DNA of 20,012 nt from a virus. The stretch lies in IMG/VR virus record IMGVR_UViG_3300033145_002055, positions 1-20,012 of that record; one strand, written 5' to 3'. The notes under the pieces were generated by a model. It had not been told where the DNA came from, ran no database searches, and saw nothing but the letters and a program-made list of their open reading frames with translations. The stretch's first letter is position 1. Each line of letters begins with the position of its first letter. This document shows, piece by piece, positions 4,092 through 18,196 of the stretch. Both the position numbers and the translations under genes were made by a program.

Positions 4092-6698
4092 TTAATCCAA
4101 TGTAAAAATTTTAATTATAATATCATCTTCTATAAAATGCATCCACTCAGGTGTATATTCTAACAACTCTTGTTGCTCAAAATCATCAATATTATAATCA
4201 AAGAATATGCCACTTTCTGGCTGTAATAACCTACAATGAGAAACTCCATTAACATTATGAACCAGATCAATAATTTTAGAACGTCTTATTATTAATTTTG
4301 GACCAAAGTCTGCTTTATAATAATTATAAATTGCTGACCTAATATTTGCTATAAGAGTTGCTTCTTGAATAGATGAATCATTAATTTTAAATACTTCCAA
4401 AGATATTTTTAAAGGAATATTATATATTGGTTTTTTCCAACCAAAATCAGTGTATATATAATTACCAGCTTTATTTAGATCATCTGGAGAAGTAACATAT
4501 GCAATATCACTACTTTTTGGTTTTATAAATGTCCATATAGTAGCAGCAACATCATCATCAACACATAAAGCAATTTCATCTCTGTGACCATTCCATGCAC
4601 CACCTTCATTTCCTGATACTATATATCTATCCGCTAAATTAGGAGAAGGAGGAATTGAAGTTAACCCTAAGTTTACAATAGGTAAAGAAGTAGGATCATT
4701 CTTTAACATATTTTTTGACTGACCGGTTGTATTACATAATTTTATATTGATAAAATCAGTTAACATTCTATAACTTTTAAATTCAGCTGATCCTAAAAAT
4801 GCTTGTAATACCTGACTTTCAAAATCAACCTTGTTTATACCACCTTCATATTCTATTGGTACACCTGGTATACCAGTTCCAGGTACTTGCGTGCCCATAT
4901 AATATGATTTTAAAATAACAGGTATATCATATATAATTGTTGCAGTACCATTGTCAAAAGTATTTGATATCATATAAGTTTTTAATTCTTGTCTAAATAC
5001 AAACTCTGCAGAATATTGACCTATAAGAGGTTGATATGTTAATGCAACTGGATTACTAATAGTAAAATAGTAAGTTTGAGGTCCTTTAGGAATATCCATA
5101 TAATCAGAAAATAAATAAATAAATTTACCACCACCAGTTGCAGGTAAATTTGTCATTGCAAATGTATCATTAGTTGATATAATTTTCATTTCACATTCAC
5201 AGTTAGAAAAATCATCCTCACTTGAATAATATGATAATTCAAATAATGCTGATGATGTACCATCATTAGTAATTTCTAAATTGTTTAAATGAAAATGATA
5301 TAGTTCTTGTTCACTATGTCCCCAACTTTCAATTAAAGTAGGAACTATTTGAATTTGTCTCATTATATAATGATAATAAGCAACTTCATTTTGTTCATCA
5401 ACTGTCATTTCAAACAATGTTATATATTCAATATCATCTATAACTATAATTTTATCTCTTGGAATATAAGTTGTACCATAAGGTTCAATAGTATAAGTTC
5501 CATTTCTTGTAGGAACAATTTCATTATCAAACTCAAGAATAGTATATAATTGAATTTCATTTACTTTTAAATCTGATCTTTTTAATACAGGTATAGAATT
5601 AGATTTAATTGGTGCATCAGGAATAACAACATCAAAATTTTTATAATCTTGCTCTGAAACTAATCTATTTAAACTAACCAAACTTTTAATTGAATTATCT
5701 CTAATTTCTTGCAAACTTTCTTCATCTGTTCCATTATAAGCAGGTGATGGATTAATAATATTGTAATCAACTATTTCAGTTACTCCACTTTGTTGAGTAT
5801 AAATTTTTCCACCAGATGTTATAGAACCAGCAATAACATTTCCATCTTCTCCATCAGTTACATTTATGTGAGCAATTACAGTTGACCCTGGTAAAGGTTG
5901 TTGGCCAATAAGTCCATTACCAAAGTATATTCTTCTTCCTTCAGGAGATACTCTTAAAACATAACCATAATCAGAATTGCTCATTAAATATAAACTGTTA
6001 AATCTTTCATACAATCTACCGGTATCTTCTGCTGAAGAATCAGGATCTCTAACATATATTTCCATATCTGCAACTTTACCATCAATAGAAACATTAATAT
6101 CTGTAAATTGATATGGTTGTAAATCTTCATCAATTGTAAACTCTTGAACAGTGGTTTTATATTGTCGGGTTGGCAATAAAAATTGAAAATTAGGATTTTC
6201 AGATGTTGTATCAATATTAACTGGAACATTAAATACTTTTCCTTCTTGTTCTGCTGATATTAAAATAGATGTATTATTAATTACATTAACATTAACATTA
6301 TAATAAGTTATAAAAGATTTATTATCATTAGTTTTAAATTCAAAACCATTAGGAATATTAAATATTGTATTTGGATCATTGAACGAAAGATTAACAGTAA
6401 TTAATACATTTGCTACTGCATATTTAGTCTCAAGCGGATTATACCCAATAAATGAACTTAAATTATGGATAGATTCTGGTAATTGAGCTTGAGTTAGAAA
6501 AAACTCATTATAGATATTGCTTTGATAGAACATTAAGTTAGAAGAAAGGGTAGTAAAAATATCTATAATATATGATAAGAATGAAGATTGGGTTAAATCA
6601 ACATTATTCAATTCCATATATTGTTGTAGAAATTCTATTACTTGTACTCTAATAGCATCTCTTGATGCATATATTATATTAGATACTGGTGTAGTCAT
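4092..6698 (-). CDS. Baseplate wedge protein, gp6 / baseplate-J family
   Basis: This 868-residue protein is a ring-forming wedge subunit of the contractile tail baseplate. The N-terminal helical part (about 10-90) ends in FIGYNPLETKYA, as in gp6/J proteins that start with a short-helix bundle before the first beta domain. RIYFGNGLIGQQPLPGSTV at about 256-274 and the following ITVTDGEDGN-like strand match the FG-G-x-x-G-x-P-x-G signature of the family. NGTDEESLQEIRDNSIKSL to LNRLVSEQDY at about 322-352 is the diagnostic 'G-x-D-E-S-x-x-x-I-R ... NR-x-V-x-x-x-DY' block. The C-terminus holds the 'V-x-G-V-x-x-C-x-L' dimerisation-type segment. T4 gp6 has 660 residues; the extra 200 lie mainly between residues 440 and 750. 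The start is preceded by AGAGGTAAAT. It is flanked by closely packed genes of the same operon. Confidence 0.93.
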   Translation of the reverse strand: MTTPVSNIIYASRDAIRVQVIEFLQQYMELNNVDLTQSSFLSYIIDIFTTLSSNLMFYQSNIYNEFFLTQAQLPESIHNLSSFIGYNPLETKYAVANVLITVNLSFNDPNTIFNIPNGFEFKTNDNKSFITYYNVNVNVINNTSILISAEQEGKVFNVPVNIDTTSENPNFQFLLPTRQYKTTVQEFTIDEDLQPYQFTDINVSIDGKVADMEIYVRDPDSSAEDTGRLYERFNSLYLMSNSDYGYVLRVSPEGRRIYFGNGLIGQQPLPGSTVIAHINVTDGEDGNVIAGSITSGGKIYTQQSGVTEIVDYNIINPSPAYNGTDEESLQEIRDNSIKSLVSLNRLVSEQDYKNFDVVIPDAPIKSNSIPVLKRSDLKVNEIQLYTILEFDNEIVPTRNGTYTIEPYGTTYIPRDKIIVIDDIEYITLFEMTVDEQNEVAYYHYIMRQIQIVPTLIESWGHSEQELYHFHLNNLEITNDGTSSALFELSYYSSEDDFSNCECEMKIISTNDTFAMTNLPATGGGKFIYLFSDYMDIPKGPQTYYFTISNPVALTYQPLIGQYSAEFVFRQELKTYMISNTFDNGTATIIYDIPVILKSYYMGTQVPGTGIPGVPIEYEGGINKVDFESQVLQAFLGSAEFKSYRMLTDFINIKLCNTTGQSKNMLKNDPTSLPIVNLGLTSIPPSPNLADRYIVSGNEGGAWNGHRDEIALCVDDDVAATIWTFIKPKSSDIAYVTSPDDLNKAGNYIYTDFGWKKPIYNIPLKISLEVFKINDSSIQEATLIANIRSAIYNYYKADFGPKLIIRRSKIIDLVHNVNGVSHCRLLQPESGIFFDYNIDDFEQQELLEYTPEWMHFIEDDIIIKIFTLD

Positions 6699-7995: not shown

Positions 7996-8424
7996 CTAAG
8001 ACTCCATATTGATAAATTGTTTATCATAAATTACAGTATTTAATGTTTTATTACTATTATCATACTCAACACCAATACTTAAAATAAAACCATGTCCATC
8101 AGGCATAAATGAAACATCTATACTTGTAATATAAGCTCTGTTATCATATTTCATTAATCTAAATCTTATTTCTTCTTTTATACCTTCTACAGTAACTTCA
8201 TCAGCAGGTTCAAAAATATACTTATATAAATCACTACCATAATCAGGGTTAGACATATAAGTTCTAGTTTTAGTTAATAAAATATTATTCCAAGAATTTA
8301 AAATAACATCAAAATCTTTTACAGAAGAAAATTCACCAGAGGATGATATCACCGGAATAAAATCAAGTATTCTTCCTTGTGAACCAACTATGTTTAAATT
8401 GAATTTTTCTAAAATAGAAGCCAT
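7996..8424 (-). CDS. Baseplate wedge protein, gp25-like
   Basis: A 142-residue member of the gp25 / lysozyme-like baseplate wedge family, which starts sheath polymerisation on the baseplate. The core SWNNILLTKTRTYMSNPDYG with SDLYKYIFEPAD matches the family pattern of a helix, a short loop and 'NP-x-YG-x-x-L-x-x-x-x-F-x-P', followed by a helix EGIKEEIRFRLMKYDNRA and strands ITSIDVSF. T4 gp25 has 132 residues. The frame is open upstream to 8481, but I choose the ATG at 8424: it follows GAAGGG, it starts MASILEKFN like the family, and its A is the last base of the preceding gene's TAA stop (TAATG), a usual coupling junction. The upstream extension would be a basic stretch that overlaps the 76-aa frame. 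A good terminator follows. Confidence 0.88.
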   Translation of the reverse strand: MASILEKFNLNIVGSQGRILDFIPVISSSGEFSSVKDFDVILNSWNNILLTKTRTYMSNPDYGSDLYKYIFEPADEVTVEGIKEEIRFRLMKYDNRAYITSIDVSFMPDGHGFILSIGVEYDNSNKTLNTVIYDKQFINMES

Positions 8425-8654
8425 TATTTTTTCCCTTCTTCTATCATTGTAAGTTTTTGATCTTCTATATCTGCTTTCCATTTTAGAAGATCATTAAACC
8501 TTTTAACAGGCATTAACATTATATCAATATAGCCCATATGTAACATTTCAATGGCTGCAAATATAGAATCATTTAACATGGTTTTATATTCATCTATTAT
8601 ATTATCCTGAGTATACCATGCGAAAGAACTGGGAAACCAAATCGATATCCACAT
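8424..8654 (-). CDS. 76-aa frame overlapping the gp26/51-like gene; probable frameshift extension
   Basis: This frame overlaps the end of the 262-aa gene by 53 bases and ends in the TAATG junction with gp25. Its first ATG (8654) has GAAGAGG directly touching it, which leaves no spacing for ribosome binding, and the next in-frame ATG (8579) has no good site. The frame is open back to 8687. The distinctive part is SIFAAIEMLHMGYIDIMLMP, VKRFNDLLKWKADIEDQ and an acidic/basic end, helical, with the 'P-V-x-R-x-x-x-L-L-x-W-K' pattern that I associate with the C-terminal part of tail or baseplate assembly chaperones. The likeliest expression is as a fusion to the 262-aa protein through a +1 (or -2) shift. 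Independent translation from a weak start is the alternative. Confidence 0.6.
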   Translation of the reverse strand: MWISIWFPSSFAWYTQDNIIDEYKTMLNDSIFAAIEMLHMGYIDIMLMPVKRFNDLLKWKADIEDQKLTMIEEGKK

Positions 8655-9390
8655 CCTCTTCCGCGCTACAATGCGGACAAAAAGTTTTCATTTTTAAGTC
8701 AACTCCATATTTTCCAAATGCTTTATTGTATGCTTCATGAATAACTCTTTTATCTCTTGCAGGTAAAGTTAAATAAGCATCAAGTATATCTGATCTATCA
8801 TTATATACTTTAGGTTTTGTTGATTCTTCTATATCTTGTTCAAAACTATCAATAATTAAAGTTTCTGTAATTAATTCAATAGAAGATCCTAATCTATTAC
8901 TTAAATTTTTAATTGCATTCATTTCATCTAACAAAGATGGTTGTTTAATAACAACTGTAATACCTTTTGAAACTGGTAATTTAACTTTAGTTGTTTTTTT
9001 TAGAATATCTTTTCCAGGATACATATTAAATTGAAATGTATCAGATGCTTGAATAGTAACAGGGTATGTTTTACCACATGAAGAACAATTAATATCATAG
9101 TTTCTTACTTCTTCATATGTTATATGGTATAATCCATATAGTAAAGCATCTCTATCCTTTAATGTACATACTGCAAGAAAGTCTTTAAACTCTTTAATTG
9201 CTGCAGGTTTTTTAACAATTGTTTCATAAATGCAAGTGTTTAAATGTTCAGTAATTTTGTTTGGTGAAACTAAACTACCTTTCATTTTTTCTTCTTCAGA
9301 AACATTTAAACTTCTTACATTAAATGACAACTTTGTATGAGGTGTGATAACTTCATACTCCGGATAATTTAAATCAAAGCCTTTAAACAT
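8602..9390 (-). CDS. Baseplate hub assembly protein, gp26/gp51-like, with CxxC pair
   Basis: The 262-residue protein resembles the T4 baseplate family that includes gp26/gp51, proteins that help assemble the baseplate hub. It carries two zinc-knuckle-type pairs, C102-x2-C105 (INCSSCGKTYPV) and C238-x2-C241 (FCPHCSAEED), which probably bind one zinc between two halves of the protein. The middle holds strands LKLPVSKGITVVIKQPS-like and a helical region with DILDAYLTLPARDKRVI. It ends DLVSQFFRMVYSG; an aromatic FFR-x-x-Y end next to an overlapping second frame is reminiscent of tail assembly chaperones. AGGGAG precedes the ATG at a good distance. T4 gp26 and gp51 have 208 and 249 residues. The family call is from the motifs; I cannot separate gp26 from gp51. 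Confidence 0.7.
   Translation of the reverse strand: MFKGFDLNYPEYEVITPHTKLSFNVRSLNVSEEEKMKGSLVSPNKITEHLNTCIYETIVKKPAAIKEFKDFLAVCTLKDRDALLYGLYHITYEEVRNYDINCSSCGKTYPVTIQASDTFQFNMYPGKDILKKTTKVKLPVSKGITVVIKQPSLLDEMNAIKNLSNRLGSSIELITETLIIDSFEQDIEESTKPKVYNDRSDILDAYLTLPARDKRVIHEAYNKAFGKYGVDLKMKTFCPHCSAEEDVDIDLVSQFFRMVYSG
8620..8628 (-). other. Candidate programmed +1 frameshift site
   Basis: On the minus strand the 262-aa frame reads TTC TTT CGC, seven codons before its stop. A tRNA-Phe on TTT can move +1 to TTC, the cognate codon, while CGC is a slow codon in so AT-rich a gene set. The shifted product would read ...SQFF-AWYTQDNIIDEYK and enter the 76-aa frame. A shift nearer the stop (TCA GGA TAA) is an alternative. 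No experiment supports this yet. Confidence 0.4.
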
Positions 9391-9433: not shown

Positions 9434-10174
9434 TTATAGTTTATCTTGTTTTAGCTGTAATTTGCTAATTTTAGACTGTAAGCTCTTTTTACAATTTTCA
9501 GAATTTTTAGCTTTAGAACAAGAAGATATTCCACTTCTTAATTTTGCAATTCTCATTCTCATTGCTTTATTCTGTAAATTTTTCATACAAGCAGCTTTTT
9601 CAGGTTTACCATTACACATTCTAGCATTTTTGCTTATATAATTTTTATATATTTTTGCTGCTGCAAATGCTATTAGTGCAGCTGCTGCTCCTGCGCTCAT
9701 TCCTATAGCTATTTTTCCCAAAGTACCCTTATTAACTGTATCTACAGCTAATTTAGTTGCCGCGTCTGTTCCCTTTTTTAAAGTTGACTTAGCTGTTTTT
9801 CTAATAGAACTTAATCTTTTAAAAAGCGATTGAGTAAATTTTGGTTGATCCCCAATTTCATTTAAGAAATTTAATACTGGTTTACATGATGATATATTAT
9901 ACTCAGCAATTGGACCCATCTTTGTAATGATATTTCTAAGTAGTTTATAATTTAAATTTTCACAGGCTATATATTGAAATGTGTTCCATATTTTTTTCTC
10001 TTCAATTGTATTATATTTTTCATCTGGAATTTCATTATTAACAATAATACTCATGATTTGATAATCGGATGCTTCATTTTGAATAAAATAATTAAAATCT
10101 TTTTGAGGATGCATCTCACATATAGTATCTCTACATATACTGAGAAACAATAAAGAATTTGATATATTAACCAT
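9434..10174 (-). CDS. Membrane-segment protein with Cys repeat, paralogue of the 251-aa gene
   Basis: This 246-residue protein of unknown function shares its N-terminal domain with the gene just upstream: SLLFL (7-11), IQNEASDY (31-38), IPDEKY, and MGPIAEY (86-92) all have near-identical counterparts. After a basic linker comes one Gly/Ala-rich hydrophobic segment (about 153-174, IAIGMSAGAAAALIAFAAAK) that could cross a membrane. The C-terminus has two units of C-x8-C-x-K-x-L-Q-x-K (Cys 187/196 and 219/228), probably disulfide- or metal-linked helical hairpins. The upstream copy lacks this unit. GGAGG precedes the ATG. The hairpin terminator of the neighbour ends only 17 bases before the ATG, so expression probably depends on read-through. 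It lies between tube and baseplate genes, which suggests a tail-associated role. Confidence 0.8.
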   Translation of the reverse strand: MVNISNSLLFLSICRDTICEMHPQKDFNYFIQNEASDYQIMSIIVNNEIPDEKYNTIEEKKIWNTFQYIACENLNYKLLRNIITKMGPIAEYNISSCKPVLNFLNEIGDQPKFTQSLFKRLSSIRKTAKSTLKKGTDAATKLAVDTVNKGTLGKIAIGMSAGAAAALIAFAAAKIYKNYISKNARMCNGKPEKAACMKNLQNKAMRMRIAKLRSGISSCSKAKNSENCKKSLQSKISKLQLKQDKL

Positions 10175-10245: not shown

Positions 10246-11001
10246 TTATTTTTTTTTAGATTTCTTAGCTTTTCTTTTTTTCCAAGCTTTATAAGCAAGA
10301 TAAGCTGCACCAGCACCAAGAGCTGCTCCACCAACACCTTTAGCAGATGCTTGTTGACCAGGAGTCATACCTTTCCAAGATTTTTGTGTAGATTTAACTC
10401 CTTTGCTAACAACATTTTCAGCGCCTGTTGCAATTTTTTCACCAGTAGATGCTATTCCAAGTGCTCCTTTAACTCTTCTTTTTGTTGAGTTAGCACGCCA
10501 TTTTAATTTTAACTTATTTCTTTTATCTTTCATTTTATCTGAAAATGTTTTTCTACCAGTAGGTTCTCTAACACCTCTCTTAAAAAACTCTTTAGTAGTT
10601 TCTTTTTCTTTTAATGCTTCTTTATAAAAACCATTATGTTGATGTAATTCCATAATAGGTTGAGCTGAACTAAGACCATATTCACTAATAGGACCCATCT
10701 CAAAGATAATTCTATCAATATCCTTTTCATCAAATCCTTCCTCTATAGCAAAATAATCATAAGCTTTAACTATATCTTTTCTAAAACATTCCCAAACAAC
10801 TTGCTCAGAAATATCATCAAATTTATCTTCAGGCATTTCACCTAAAGTAACTAAATGAATAACTTCATAATCAGAAGCTTCATTTTGAATATAATCTTTT
10901 AGCTCTGTTTTTTCTTTTATTGAAGACTCATCTATTGATTCACAAACACTTTGTCTTGCAAGTTTAAGAAACAGCAGAGATTCAATTAATGGATGTAACA
11001 T
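10246..11001 (-). CDS. Membrane-segment protein, paralogue of the 246-aa gene
   Basis: A 251-residue protein of unknown function. The N-terminal domain (1-125) contains ESLLFLKLARQSVCE, DYIQNEASDYEVIHL, EMPEDKFDD and FEMGPISEYGLSSAQP, each matched in the downstream paralogue, so the pair arose by duplication and has diverged widely. A long very basic linker (about 130-215) is followed by one hydrophobic Gly/Ala segment (about 221-238, GVGGAALGAGAAYLAYKAW) and a final run of Lys. A single C-terminal anchor with a positive end fits an N-out or tail-anchored topology. AGGAGG precedes the ATG, 18 bases after the tube gene, so it is read from the tube promoter. A strong hairpin follows. A role in the virion or in host-membrane contact at injection is inference. 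Confidence 0.82.
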   Translation of the reverse strand: MLHPLIESLLFLKLARQSVCESIDESSIKEKTELKDYIQNEASDYEVIHLVTLGEMPEDKFDDISEQVVWECFRKDIVKAYDYFAIEEGFDEKDIDRIIFEMGPISEYGLSSAQPIMELHQHNGFYKEALKEKETTKEFFKRGVREPTGRKTFSDKMKDKRNKLKLKWRANSTKRRVKGALGIASTGEKIATGAENVVSKGVKSTQKSWKGMTPGQQASAKGVGGAALGAGAAYLAYKAWKKRKAKKSKKK

Positions 11002-11019: not shown

Positions 11020-11751
11020 TTATTTTAATTTTTTTCCATAATTGTAAATTTCATTTTTAGCTTTATCAGTATTTGGTTGATATAATGATTTGATTTTTTC
11101 GTATACCCAATTTTCATGCCATACGTAATCAACATTAAATTCAATCTCAACATCTAATTTACCAATACTTTCAACATCGCTAGCATATAAATCAGCAGGA
11201 TCTTTAGTTGGAAATACACCATCATAAGCTGCATAATATTCGATAGTTTTTCCATCTGGAGCGGTTGTCCAGTAATATAAAACTGCAGAATAATTTGTTT
11301 TAGTATATGCTGTAGTTCCTTCATTTTGATCACTAAGTGGTTCTCCAGCAACACCTGTTCTATAATCACGCATCATTTTAATCCATCTATGCATAATAGT
11401 AGTTACAGGTAAACCTTGCATTTCTTGAAATTTAACTGATACTGAATTACCATAGTCAAGATTACCAGGTACAGCCCATTTTACTCCACCAAGTCCAGTA
11501 AACTCAACTTTGTTTAATGTTCCACCTGGAGGTGTTACTCCAGTACATGTTGCAGCTAAAATCAATGGTGTTTCTGATTGATTTAAACCACCTGTTACTG
11601 GTTCACTATCAAATGGAATATTTGGCATTTTATCAAACCAAATAAAGTGATATCCTGTAATATATGGATCTGCAACTCCAGTAGTATGTCCGCCCCATCT
11701 TCTTGATAGAACGTTGCTTTGTACATTTGAGAAAGCATGTTTTAAACTCAT
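11020..11751 (-). CDS. Tail tube protein (gp19-like)
   Basis: The 243-residue major tube subunit forms the rigid inner tube through which DNA passes. Evidence: FIWFDKMPNIPF near residue 37; the tube-type beta strand SVSVKFQEMQGLPVTTIMHR followed by the helix WIKMMRDYRTG; and the C-terminal AAYDGVFPTKDPADLYASDV with KLDVEIEFNVDYV, which matches the 'G-x-FP-x-x-P-x-x-x-L ... I-x-F' end of T4-type tube proteins. T4 gp19 has 163 residues; the extra length lies mainly in the N-terminal third and in a loop with CTGVTPPGGTLNK. GGAGG lies eight bases before the ATG. The 226-base leader holds a late-promoter motif, a 21-base element shared with the sheath leader, and the terminator of the preceding gene. 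The sheath is two genes upstream, the usual partner. Confidence 0.9.
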   Translation of the reverse strand: MSLKHAFSNVQSNVLSRRWGGHTTGVADPYITGYHFIWFDKMPNIPFDSEPVTGGLNQSETPLILAATCTGVTPPGGTLNKVEFTGLGGVKWAVPGNLDYGNSVSVKFQEMQGLPVTTIMHRWIKMMRDYRTGVAGEPLSDQNEGTTAYTKTNYSAVLYYWTTAPDGKTIEYYAAYDGVFPTKDPADLYASDVESIGKLDVEIEFNVDYVWHENWVYEKIKSLYQPNTDKAKNEIYNYGKKLK

Positions 11752-12321: not shown

Positions 12322-14304
12322 TTATTTAATGAAGAAATTTAAACTAATTTTTTCTGCAACTCTAGTAGGTTCTAAAGTAATATTAACATGAAAAGTTTTA
12401 GTTTTAATTTCATATGCAGTAGCACCAACCTCAACATTAAAGCTATAAAGACCTCTTCTAGATTTAATATTATCAAGGAATTGTACTATTCCACCGGCTA
12501 CTTGACTCCAAGTGATTTGATCATTTTGCTCAAATATAAAGAAACGGCAATATTGTTCAAGAGCACGTTTGCAATATAGAACAAGTCTTACAATATTCAA
12601 GTCTTGTAATGCACTTGGTTTAGCTTGAGAAGTCAATTGACCCCAGTTAGTATATCCTGGGTTGAACTTAACAATTGGATTTAATTGTTTTAAATACATT
12701 TGATCTCTTTGACCTAATCTTGGATTAAATCTAAGTTCTTTAATTGTATCAATTGAAGCTCTATTAAAACCAGCAGCAGCAAACCAAATCTCAGCTACAT
12801 TATCATTTCTTGGTAATAAATATGACATATGAAATACTGGAGAGAACCATATATCTTGTCCAGTAAATGAATCATACACTTTATTATACTCTTCATAAAT
12901 AGAACAGAAATAATTATTAAATGTATGAACATCATTACGTTTAGTAATTGAATTAGTATATGATGAGTTATCACCATTATCCATAATTGCTACACAATCA
13001 CGTCTGGTTTGAACTAATGTTGAAATACTAGTTTTAACATCAGAAGGATATCCACAATCAAATACTATTGAAAAATAAATATTTTCTTGGTCTAATAAAT
13101 CATCAACTGAACTTGAACCATCGACTGAACTAGTTAATTGACCAAGATAACCTTGAGATAATAATTGAGTAGCAACCACAGTATCTAAATCACCACTAGC
13201 AGTTAAAAGACTTCCATCACTACCTTTCTTTAATGGAACAGGTTCTGATGATGTAAAAGCTGCTGCTACTAATGCAAATGATTTTTTAATTGTATAAGTA
13301 ATTTCGCCAGTTTCATCAAACAATGAAGTATCACCAATCCAATTTCTAGCACCACTTAATATTCTATCATTATATACTTCAATGCTATCTTCATCAGCAT
13401 TCAAACCACCACACCATCCTTGAAGTTTATTACCACGTTGATCAGTAGCTTCTATACAATAAGCATAAGGAAAAGCTGTAGAAATCCAATCAGTAAAATC
13501 TTGTTTAGTATCAGTTATTGATGCTGCACCAGTAGATTTATCAACTGAAACGGTACCAATTTCTTTATCATAAACTTTAATTAATGTATCATAACCACTT
13601 GACATAATTTCATCACCATCAGTAGTCATTTCACATCTTAAAACACTTGAATAATTATTAAGAACATATTGAATCCAAATAGAATCGCCAGAGTTATCTC
13701 TAGCATTAGGATCAAATGATAATTCAAATGATTCTACTATAACTTCTGTACTATCAGCTTGTTTTTCATAAACATCAAGAACATAAATTCCGTCTAACAT
13801 TGGGTTAGCATGAGCTGTTAATCTTACACTAATACCATTATAATATTCTCCTCTACCAATTGGATAAAGAATACATAGTGGATAAGTATCTCCAACTTGA
13901 GCTAATCCTGTTCTTAATTCATAAATATTATTAATATCTGTTGAATTGATATTATTTAATGATACTGTAGCAGTAGAATCAGTTGCAGCTAACTCAACAT
14001 TAATTCTTATATTTGCATATGATGCATCATCTGGCATACATCTAATAAAGAATAATGATCCAGATTCTCCTAGATAATTATATGCACAATACATACCTTG
14101 CCCATAACTTTTTCCATATTCAGTGATATTAGGTTCACCAAATTCAGAAATAAGTTCAGCTCTTCCACCGATAAATTTTAAAACGTTGTCTTCACCTTTT
14201 TTGGTAATACCACAAATTAAACCAATTGTGCTTGGTACTGCTGCAACATAAGTGCTTAAGTCAGTGATTGTAGTATATACACCTGGTGATATTGGACTTG
14301 CCAT
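12322..14304 (-). CDS. Tail sheath protein (gp18-like)
   Basis: The 660-residue contractile sheath subunit surrounds the tube and shortens on contact to drive the tube through the cell envelope. The N-terminus MASPISPGVYTTITDLSTYV is the classic sheath start (a 'PGVY' strand that links neighbours), followed by GLICGITKKGEDN and the FGEPN/YGQG segment near 75-95. The C-terminal domain (about 490-660) has RLGQRDQMYLKQLNPIVKF, RRGLYSFNVEVGATAYE and the final VNITLEPTRVAEKISLNFFI, which matches the conserved C-terminal sheath domain that makes the interlocking mesh. T4 gp18 has 659 residues. AAGGAGG precedes the ATG. Its 118-base leader has the 21-base element shared with the tube but no clear copy of the late-promoter motif, so it may be read from the promoter of the 225-aa gene. 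A strong terminator follows. Confidence 0.95.
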   Translation of the reverse strand: MASPISPGVYTTITDLSTYVAAVPSTIGLICGITKKGEDNVLKFIGGRAELISEFGEPNITEYGKSYGQGMYCAYNYLGESGSLFFIRCMPDDASYANIRINVELAATDSTATVSLNNINSTDINNIYELRTGLAQVGDTYPLCILYPIGRGEYYNGISVRLTAHANPMLDGIYVLDVYEKQADSTEVIVESFELSFDPNARDNSGDSIWIQYVLNNYSSVLRCEMTTDGDEIMSSGYDTLIKVYDKEIGTVSVDKSTGAASITDTKQDFTDWISTAFPYAYCIEATDQRGNKLQGWCGGLNADEDSIEVYNDRILSGARNWIGDTSLFDETGEITYTIKKSFALVAAAFTSSEPVPLKKGSDGSLLTASGDLDTVVATQLLSQGYLGQLTSSVDGSSSVDDLLDQENIYFSIVFDCGYPSDVKTSISTLVQTRRDCVAIMDNGDNSSYTNSITKRNDVHTFNNYFCSIYEEYNKVYDSFTGQDIWFSPVFHMSYLLPRNDNVAEIWFAAAGFNRASIDTIKELRFNPRLGQRDQMYLKQLNPIVKFNPGYTNWGQLTSQAKPSALQDLNIVRLVLYCKRALEQYCRFFIFEQNDQITWSQVAGGIVQFLDNIKSRRGLYSFNVEVGATAYEIKTKTFHVNITLEPTRVAEKISLNFFIK

Positions 14305-17392: not shown

Positions 17393-18196
17393 TTATGCTT
17401 GTAGATTTGTCCCACACTCAGGACAAAATTTAGTTCCATATCTTGATTTAGTTCCACAAGTAGGACATTCTTTTTTAGTTGATACAAATAGAGGAGTCTT
17501 TACAGGTTCATCTATCTTATCAGTACCTTTAAGTCTAATAATAATTGTTCCATGATCTTCAATAGTTCCTACATAGGTACTATTAAAATCTTGTTTTAGT
17601 TCAGAACCAGGAACTGTTATACCCTCTTCTATCTGAGGTGCTTCACTTGGTCCAAGACTATCCATAGTAACATTACTTGAAATATTAGCAGATGCCATTG
17701 GATCAGATTGTCCTACAATGCTTCTAACTGCATTCATATCATTACTACATCCACCATATTTTACTTCATGGTTACTATATACATTAGTAGTATCAAAACT
17801 TCTATATACTGTTGGATATGTCCATGTAGTAGTAGATGATAATTGTCTTTCAAAACCAAATTTAACACGGATGAAACCATCATCTATTTTATCTCCACGA
17901 TGATCTTGAATTTTTTTTGTTTTTTGAATGAATTTAAAAGCATTCTTGACTGCATTATTAACCATGACACCTTTTAACTCAGTATCATCATTGGCGTCAA
18001 TAACAAGTCTTCTTCCATCCAATACATCAGTTCCATCAATAGAAACTTCTGCAACCGCTCTTCTATTATCAAGATTTTTTAATAGGATAGAATACTCTGC
18101 TCCGAAAGGAAGGATGACATCATTCTCATTTGATACTTCTCTAAGAATTTTACCATTACATTTGATCACTGCTACGAAATTATTGTTATATACCAT
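17393..18196 (-). CDS. Virion-type protein with C-terminal zinc ribbon
   Basis: A 267-residue protein with two parts. The first (about 1-117) is beta-rich: FVAVIKCNGKILREVS, LKNLDNRRAVAEVSIDGTDV, DGRRLVIDAND, then FKFIQKTKKIQDHRG and DDGFIRVKFGFE. I associate this 'N-R-R-A-x-x-x-V-S-I-D-G ... D-G-x-I-R-V-x-F' pattern with conserved virion or surface-associated proteins of large phages. The middle (120-235) is Ser/Thr/Asn-rich and probably flexible. The end is a classical zinc ribbon, CPTCGTKSRYGTKFCPECG, with Cys 244, 247, 258 and 261. A zinc ribbon on such a protein is unusual and suggests a nucleic-acid or protein contact. AGGAG precedes the ATG; a promoter motif and a possible leader hairpin lie upstream, and a strong terminator follows, so it is a separate unit. 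Confidence 0.82.
   Translation of the reverse strand: MVYNNNFVAVIKCNGKILREVSNENDVILPFGAEYSILLKNLDNRRAVAEVSIDGTDVLDGRRLVIDANDDTELKGVMVNNAVKNAFKFIQKTKKIQDHRGDKIDDGFIRVKFGFERQLSSTTTWTYPTVYRSFDTTNVYSNHEVKYGGCSNDMNAVRSIVGQSDPMASANISSNVTMDSLGPSEAPQIEEGITVPGSELKQDFNSTYVGTIEDHGTIIIRLKGTDKIDEPVKTPLFVSTKKECPTCGTKSRYGTKFCPECGTNLQA

Follow-up and report, generated by a model that had tools for sequence, protein, structure and literature searches.

A conserved UUU-CGN signal for a probable +1 frameshift in the gp26/gp51-type tail gene of uncultured giant phages

The PF12322 (T4 gp26/gp51-type) gene in the tail module of virus record IMGVR_UViG_3300033145_002055 (its 20,012 analysed nucleotides are called the window below) appears to encode two proteins from one start, a short form of 262 residues and, after a +1 ribosomal frameshift at TTC-TTT-CGC, a predicted long form of 321 residues, which together are likely to act as a chaperone pair. 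We assign this whole account a probability of about 0.88. A +1 frameshift at UUU-CGN in the PF12322 gene of this clade is very strongly indicated by the comparison of homologous genes, while the chaperone role of the pair, argued from the homology to T4 gp26/gp51 and from the layout of lambda G/GT, is favoured with modest confidence. The group carrying the signal is a large set of uncultured giant phages.

The minus strand of the window carries the tail module of an AT-rich myovirus, probably a jumbo myovirus. From higher to lower coordinates, it contains the tail sheath gene (12322..14304; phrog_19666/phrog_23 tail sheath, PF17482), a probable tail tube gene (11020..11751; phrog_45 tail tube at E=0.004 and phrog_21400 virion structural protein at E=2e-12), two genes with no assigned function (10246-11001 and 9434-10174), the gene of the 262-aa protein, the gp25 baseplate wedge gene (7996..8424; PF04965, E=1e-7) and, separated from gp25 by another two function-unassigned genes, a baseplate wedge gene (4092-6698). 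The tandem genes between the tube-like gene and the 262-aa gene have an N-terminal pattern in common (LLFL...C...YIQNEASDY...MGPI.EY) as well as lysine-rich tails, and look like paralogues. For gp25, the program-made ORF of 161 aa (7996-8481) is too long, the likely start being the ATG at 8424. Elsewhere in the window, positions 17393-18196 encode a 267-aa protein with a C-terminal zinc-ribbon (CxxC...CxxC).

The short form (8602..9390, minus strand, as are all features of this gene; stop TAA at 8604-8602) scores 37.9 bits with PF12322, which is above the curated cut-off of 24.5 (E=2e-9; residues 10-257, profile 2-219 of 219), and also matches phrog_150 (baseplate hub; E=3e-11, 10-235). Its two CxxC pairs, C102/C105 (9076..9087) and C238/C241 (8668..8679), are invariant in the family alignment, the second lying about 15 residues upstream of the shift site. 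An earlier sequence-only reading had assigned the gene to the gp26/gp51 type with two CxxC pairs, and the PF12322 score bears this out. The same reading had described a 53-base overlap between the 262-aa ORF (9390-8602) and a 76-aa ORF in the +1 frame (8654-8424), a +1 frame that stays open over the last 86 bases of the 262-aa ORF, and TTC TTT CGC at 8628-8620, all of which we recovered at exactly these positions. The shift site (8620..8628) is found five codons before the 0-frame stop, and is followed in the +1 frame by an extension of 65 codons (8427..8621; AWYTQDNIIDEYKTML...EEGKK), for which three helices are predicted in a relative. The fusion would give the long form (8427..9390; stop TAA at 8426-8424), so that, as in the G/GT type, a tail-module gene would acquire a C-terminally extended form through a shift close to its 3' end. 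The phrog_150 match reaches profile column 247 with the fused protein and column 235 without the extension, which is a small gain. The ATG of gp25 (8424-8422) shares bases with the extension stop as TAATG, and the gp25 ribosome site is inside the extension; the spacing between extension stop and gp25 is similar in most relatives where it was found (-8 to +25, one at +46).

Taken alone, a +1 open frame of 76-87 codons is unremarkable, since the AT-rich window holds spurious ORFs of 74-247 aa, and several antisense ORFs of similar length are present. The frame stands above chance because its geometry and TTY-TTT-CGN are kept in 110 of 110 distinct related genes. Within the window itself (5,591 codons counted), CGC is used once and in-frame TTT-CGN occurs once, both at the shift site.

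To gather relatives, IMG/VR and GTDB were searched with peptide patterns taken from parts of the protein body outside the shift site, which yielded 82 genes at first and 110 distinct genes (the window and 109 others) after a second collection with different seeds. In all 110, the 0 frame ends with F-F-R and 4-8 further codons, and the shift-site DNA is TTY TTT CGN (TTTTTTCGN in 106 genes and TTCTTTCGC in 4), TTC at the shift Phe or AGA/AGG at the Arg being found in none. All relatives keep the +1 frame open for an extension of 63-82 codons, apart from one contig that breaks off within the extension. No homologue places the two frames in separate genes, and the overlap and TTT-C are kept exactly, which supports the proposal, made from the single sequence, of a +1 shift at TTT-C before a rare Arg codon. 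TTT-C followed by a +1 extension of the same kind is also present in a relative with 25% identity (L086, from a Thermoproteota bin), for which we found no relatives among phages or in IMG/VR. This contig and that of L085 are binned as archaea (Thermoproteota and Thermoplasmatales, respectively), which reflects either a binning error or archaeal hosts for the phage group. The +1 clade has no cultured member in the phage collection, and a search of cultured phages with the extension alone gave no match.

Codon use at the site was analysed in 52 non-redundant members (<85% nucleotide identity). The shift Arg is CGN in 52/52, compared with 15/52, 9/52 and 16/50 at other invariant Arg columns, and the shift Phe is TTT in 52/52, compared with 33-45 of 52 at other invariant Phe columns. 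The alignment used (A6) leaves out extension-only rows, which were misplaced in A4 and A5. On a tree of these members, built without the shift site, the shift codons show no TTT/TTC switch and no CGN/AGR switch, while the other invariant columns show 7-14 switches for Phe and 7-11 CGN/AGR switches for Arg; the Phe immediately preceding the shift Phe has 3 codon switches. The third base of CGN, which is left free by the +1 model, changes 19 times on the tree. Among 124 columns, the lowest synonymous variation is that of the shift TTT.

Past the 0-frame stop, the extension has a median dN/dS of 0.18 (159 pairs), and by this comparative measure it is coding sequence under purifying selection. UUU_CGN lies in the 0 frame, within the overlap with this coding +1 frame, in every one of the 110 genes. 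It is very improbable that the extension is made as a separate small protein, through internal initiation in the +1 frame or through translation resuming past the 262-aa stop, even though an in-frame ATG is present just upstream of the site in the window (8652..8654, the only +1-frame ATG upstream of the site) and in four close relatives, some other members have an ATG three codons past the site, and in AR9 and MarsHill the -1 version of the extension, described below, is annotated as an ORF of its own. The statement that the 76-aa frame lacks a usable start needs correction in so far as this ATG (8654-8652) exists, but it has poor ribosome-site spacing and recurs only in the group of five close relatives to which the window belongs; in most family members, a +1-frame stop separates its position from the shift site. 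No start is conserved: 28/52 members have no ATG, GTG or TTG ahead of the fifteenth codon after the site, that is, inside the conserved domain, and in most members the +1 frame is closed by a stop typically 35-50 bases upstream of the 0-frame stop. Together, the missing starts and the upstream stop mean that independent initiation cannot be the shared mechanism, and the position of the stop limits the crossing between frames to about 11-16 codons around FFR. A separate protein would also leave the invariant TTT-CGN unexplained.

The +1 frame could in principle also be entered if ribosomes shifted by -2, as they do in phage Mu, or if RNA polymerase slipped on the T run; the TTTTTT of most members would permit either. 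We regard this as highly unlikely, as the sequence in the window and three other members is TTCTTTC, whose T run is three long and does not allow re-pairing on TTT after a -2 step, and the C after TTT, required solely by +1 re-pairing, never varies. The virus record is a single 20 kb contig, for which a sequencing or assembly artefact or a decayed gene might be suspected, but this reading is refuted by conservation and retains practically no probability: many metagenomes contributed to the 110 distinct genes, all of which break at this codon, and dN/dS is low, as given above. A different question is whether, the frameshift being real, the long form is no chaperone but a structural hub or baseplate isoform retained in the virion, which we consider rather unlikely. 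In some genetic work T4 gp26 was assigned to the hub, on whose content the reports conflict (PMC3004832), but T4 gp51 is essential for assembly and yet absent from the particle, gp26 and gp51 are both tabulated as hub assembly chaperones (PMC3004832), and the layout is that of lambda G/GT.

According to the preferred reading, a +1 frameshift, the majority of ribosomes would produce the short form, terminating five codons past FFR. At TTC-TTT-CGC, tRNA-Phe (anticodon GAA) would be in the P site on TTT (8625-8623), with the rare Arg codon CGC in the A site; some ribosomes would then move by +1, with tRNA-Phe re-pairing on TTC (8624-8622) and GCA (8621-8619) being read next, to produce the long form with its helical C-terminal domain. 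UUU followed by C would be kept because the GAA anticodon must re-pair on UUC in the +1 step. Comparative sequence analysis shows that the extension is coding and that the shift signal is conserved, and from this we infer that the shift occurs in cells. Its rate may be low, because stimulators were not found: a Shine-Dalgarno-like element upstream of the shift site is absent in 51/52 members, no consistent hairpin was found downstream (mean z -0.6, window z +1.9), and an Rfam search returned sub-threshold chance matches only. Most probably, the two forms would act during tail assembly as a set of chaperones, loading the tape measure and hub and passing it on to tube or baseplate proteins, a role that we infer from the relationship to short gp26 and long gp51 of T4 and from the G/GT layout.

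T4 gp26 and gp51 are paralogues from one Pfam family (hhalign E=8e-14, gp26 18-208; locus L090:2803-4229). The PF12322 match extends to residue 206/208 in gp26, to 201/249 in gp51 and to 257 in the window protein, which is the shift site, and gp51 has a 48-residue tail (202-249) where this clade has the frameshift extension. AlphaFold (AF2) was used to model a relative of gp51 (pLDDT 82) and the fusion (pLDDT 83), the latter as it occurs in the relative L020 and not in the window; both tails are predicted as a long helix, a five-residue helix and a long helix, following immediately on the final helix of the PF12322 domain. In BFVD, the L020 fusion model matches proteins of the PF12322 type; a PDB fold search gave no meaningful match, and we found no solved structure for the family. 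Profile similarity between the extension and the gp51 tail is weak (E=0.008), and a direct profile comparison of the whole fusion with the gp51 family was not significant. The extension is likely homologous to the gp51 tail, as judged mainly from its position and predicted helices, and it is possible that gp26/gp51 of T4 are a duplicated short/long chaperone pair.

A -1 version of the arrangement is found in eight PBS1-like and Staphylococcus jumbo phages, in which the phrog_18873 gene is extended C-terminally in the -1 frame, with CTT-TTC at the site in PB50 and CTT-TTT in the others (L003:5780-6073 in AR9, L112:1380-1673 in PBS1, L001:5790-6082 in BpSp, L087:3320-3642 in PALS_2, and L089, L109, L110 and L111). 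A comparison with the +1 extension shows the two to be related (E=5e-4), and the databases carry a separate small hypothetical gene in place of the -1 extension. The Bacillus phages PBS1, AR9, Goe21 and BpSp have a homologous domain (22-24% identity) with an extension that overlaps the end of the domain gene; they and the Staphylococcus jumbo phages differ from the +1 clade in the -1 frame and in a long N-terminal addition, and are not annotated as frameshifted. In Listeria phage LPJP1 (L088, L108), the linear record breaks inside the gene, the two ends have no clear joint frame, and the record may be incomplete at this gene. The present analysis corrects the annotation of such extensions, which are now missed or listed as separate hypothetical genes, including those of PBS1, AR9 and the Staphylococcus jumbo phages.

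The analogy with lambda G/GT and P2 E/E', already suggested by the sequence-only reading, holds for the layout and is strengthened by the -1 version in the PBS1-like phages and by the paralogy of gp26 and gp51, the chaperone function remaining presumptive. In those systems too, a tail-module gene yields a short form and a long form with a C-terminal domain, the long form being of low abundance and the shift preceding the stop by a few codons (PMC5009743). They shift by -1 at X_XXY_YYZ, whereas here the shift would be +1 at UUU_CGN, and the protein belongs to the PF12322 family, with two CxxC pairs. As to gene position, genes of the G/GT type are located between those of the major tail tube and the tape measure, which their product binds; this gene is downstream of sheath and tube, with two genes separating it from the tube gene, and adjoins gp25. 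T4 gp26 and gp51 are of the same family, and gp26 ends at the shift position (KEFFELL), but T4 has two separate, divergently oriented genes and no frameshift. According to a review (PMC5009743), long-tailed phages have lambda-type G-T shifting as a conserved feature, "except T4". We have a slight preference for the view that PF12322 proteins are the short/long chaperone pair of this lineage, with the long form obtained by a +1 shift, a -1 shift or duplication. This would offer a testable account of the roles of gp26 and gp51, and would account for the seeming lack in T4 of the frameshifted chaperone known in other long-tailed phages. The chances are about even that the whole PF12322 family is the counterpart of G/GT and descends from a frameshifted short/long pair, with +1 shifting at UUU_CGN in this clade and -1 shifting in PBS1-like phages, which a duplication into gp26 and gp51 would have superseded in T4, so that T4 is no exception, and that a bare UUU_CGN lacking recognisable stimulators is sufficient for functional +1 shifting in prokaryotes. 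In the open-access literature, which was the scope of our search, we found nothing on frameshifting in PF12322 or on gp26/gp51 as a G/GT equivalent.

In other phages, the tape measure chaperone of the Felix O1-like phage Moogle is annotated as frameshifted (PMC4319497), and a +1 shift at TTT-CGC was proposed for the tail assembly chaperone of HF1-like haloviruses (PMC7230728). The haloviruses HF1/HF2 and HSTV-2 differ from the present case in that their chaperone family is unrelated (phrog_14268/phrog_12163, no Pfam match), their hosts are GC-rich and the evidence comes from six close genomes. With 110 genes and no exception, the signal described here is among the best-conserved natural +1 signals in tailed phages, and its motif was previously familiar chiefly in RNA viruses of eukaryotes. 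As a +1 motif, UUU_CGN is established for influenza A PA-X and plant amalgaviruses (PMC5052127), where the slip quartet and the class of A-site codon are the same and all four CGN codons are used (PMC5052127, PMC5009743); no stimulator is evident for PA-X either (PMC5009743). These are eukaryotic RNA viruses and the genes are unrelated, but the shift signal is the one that is kept throughout this clade of giant phages.
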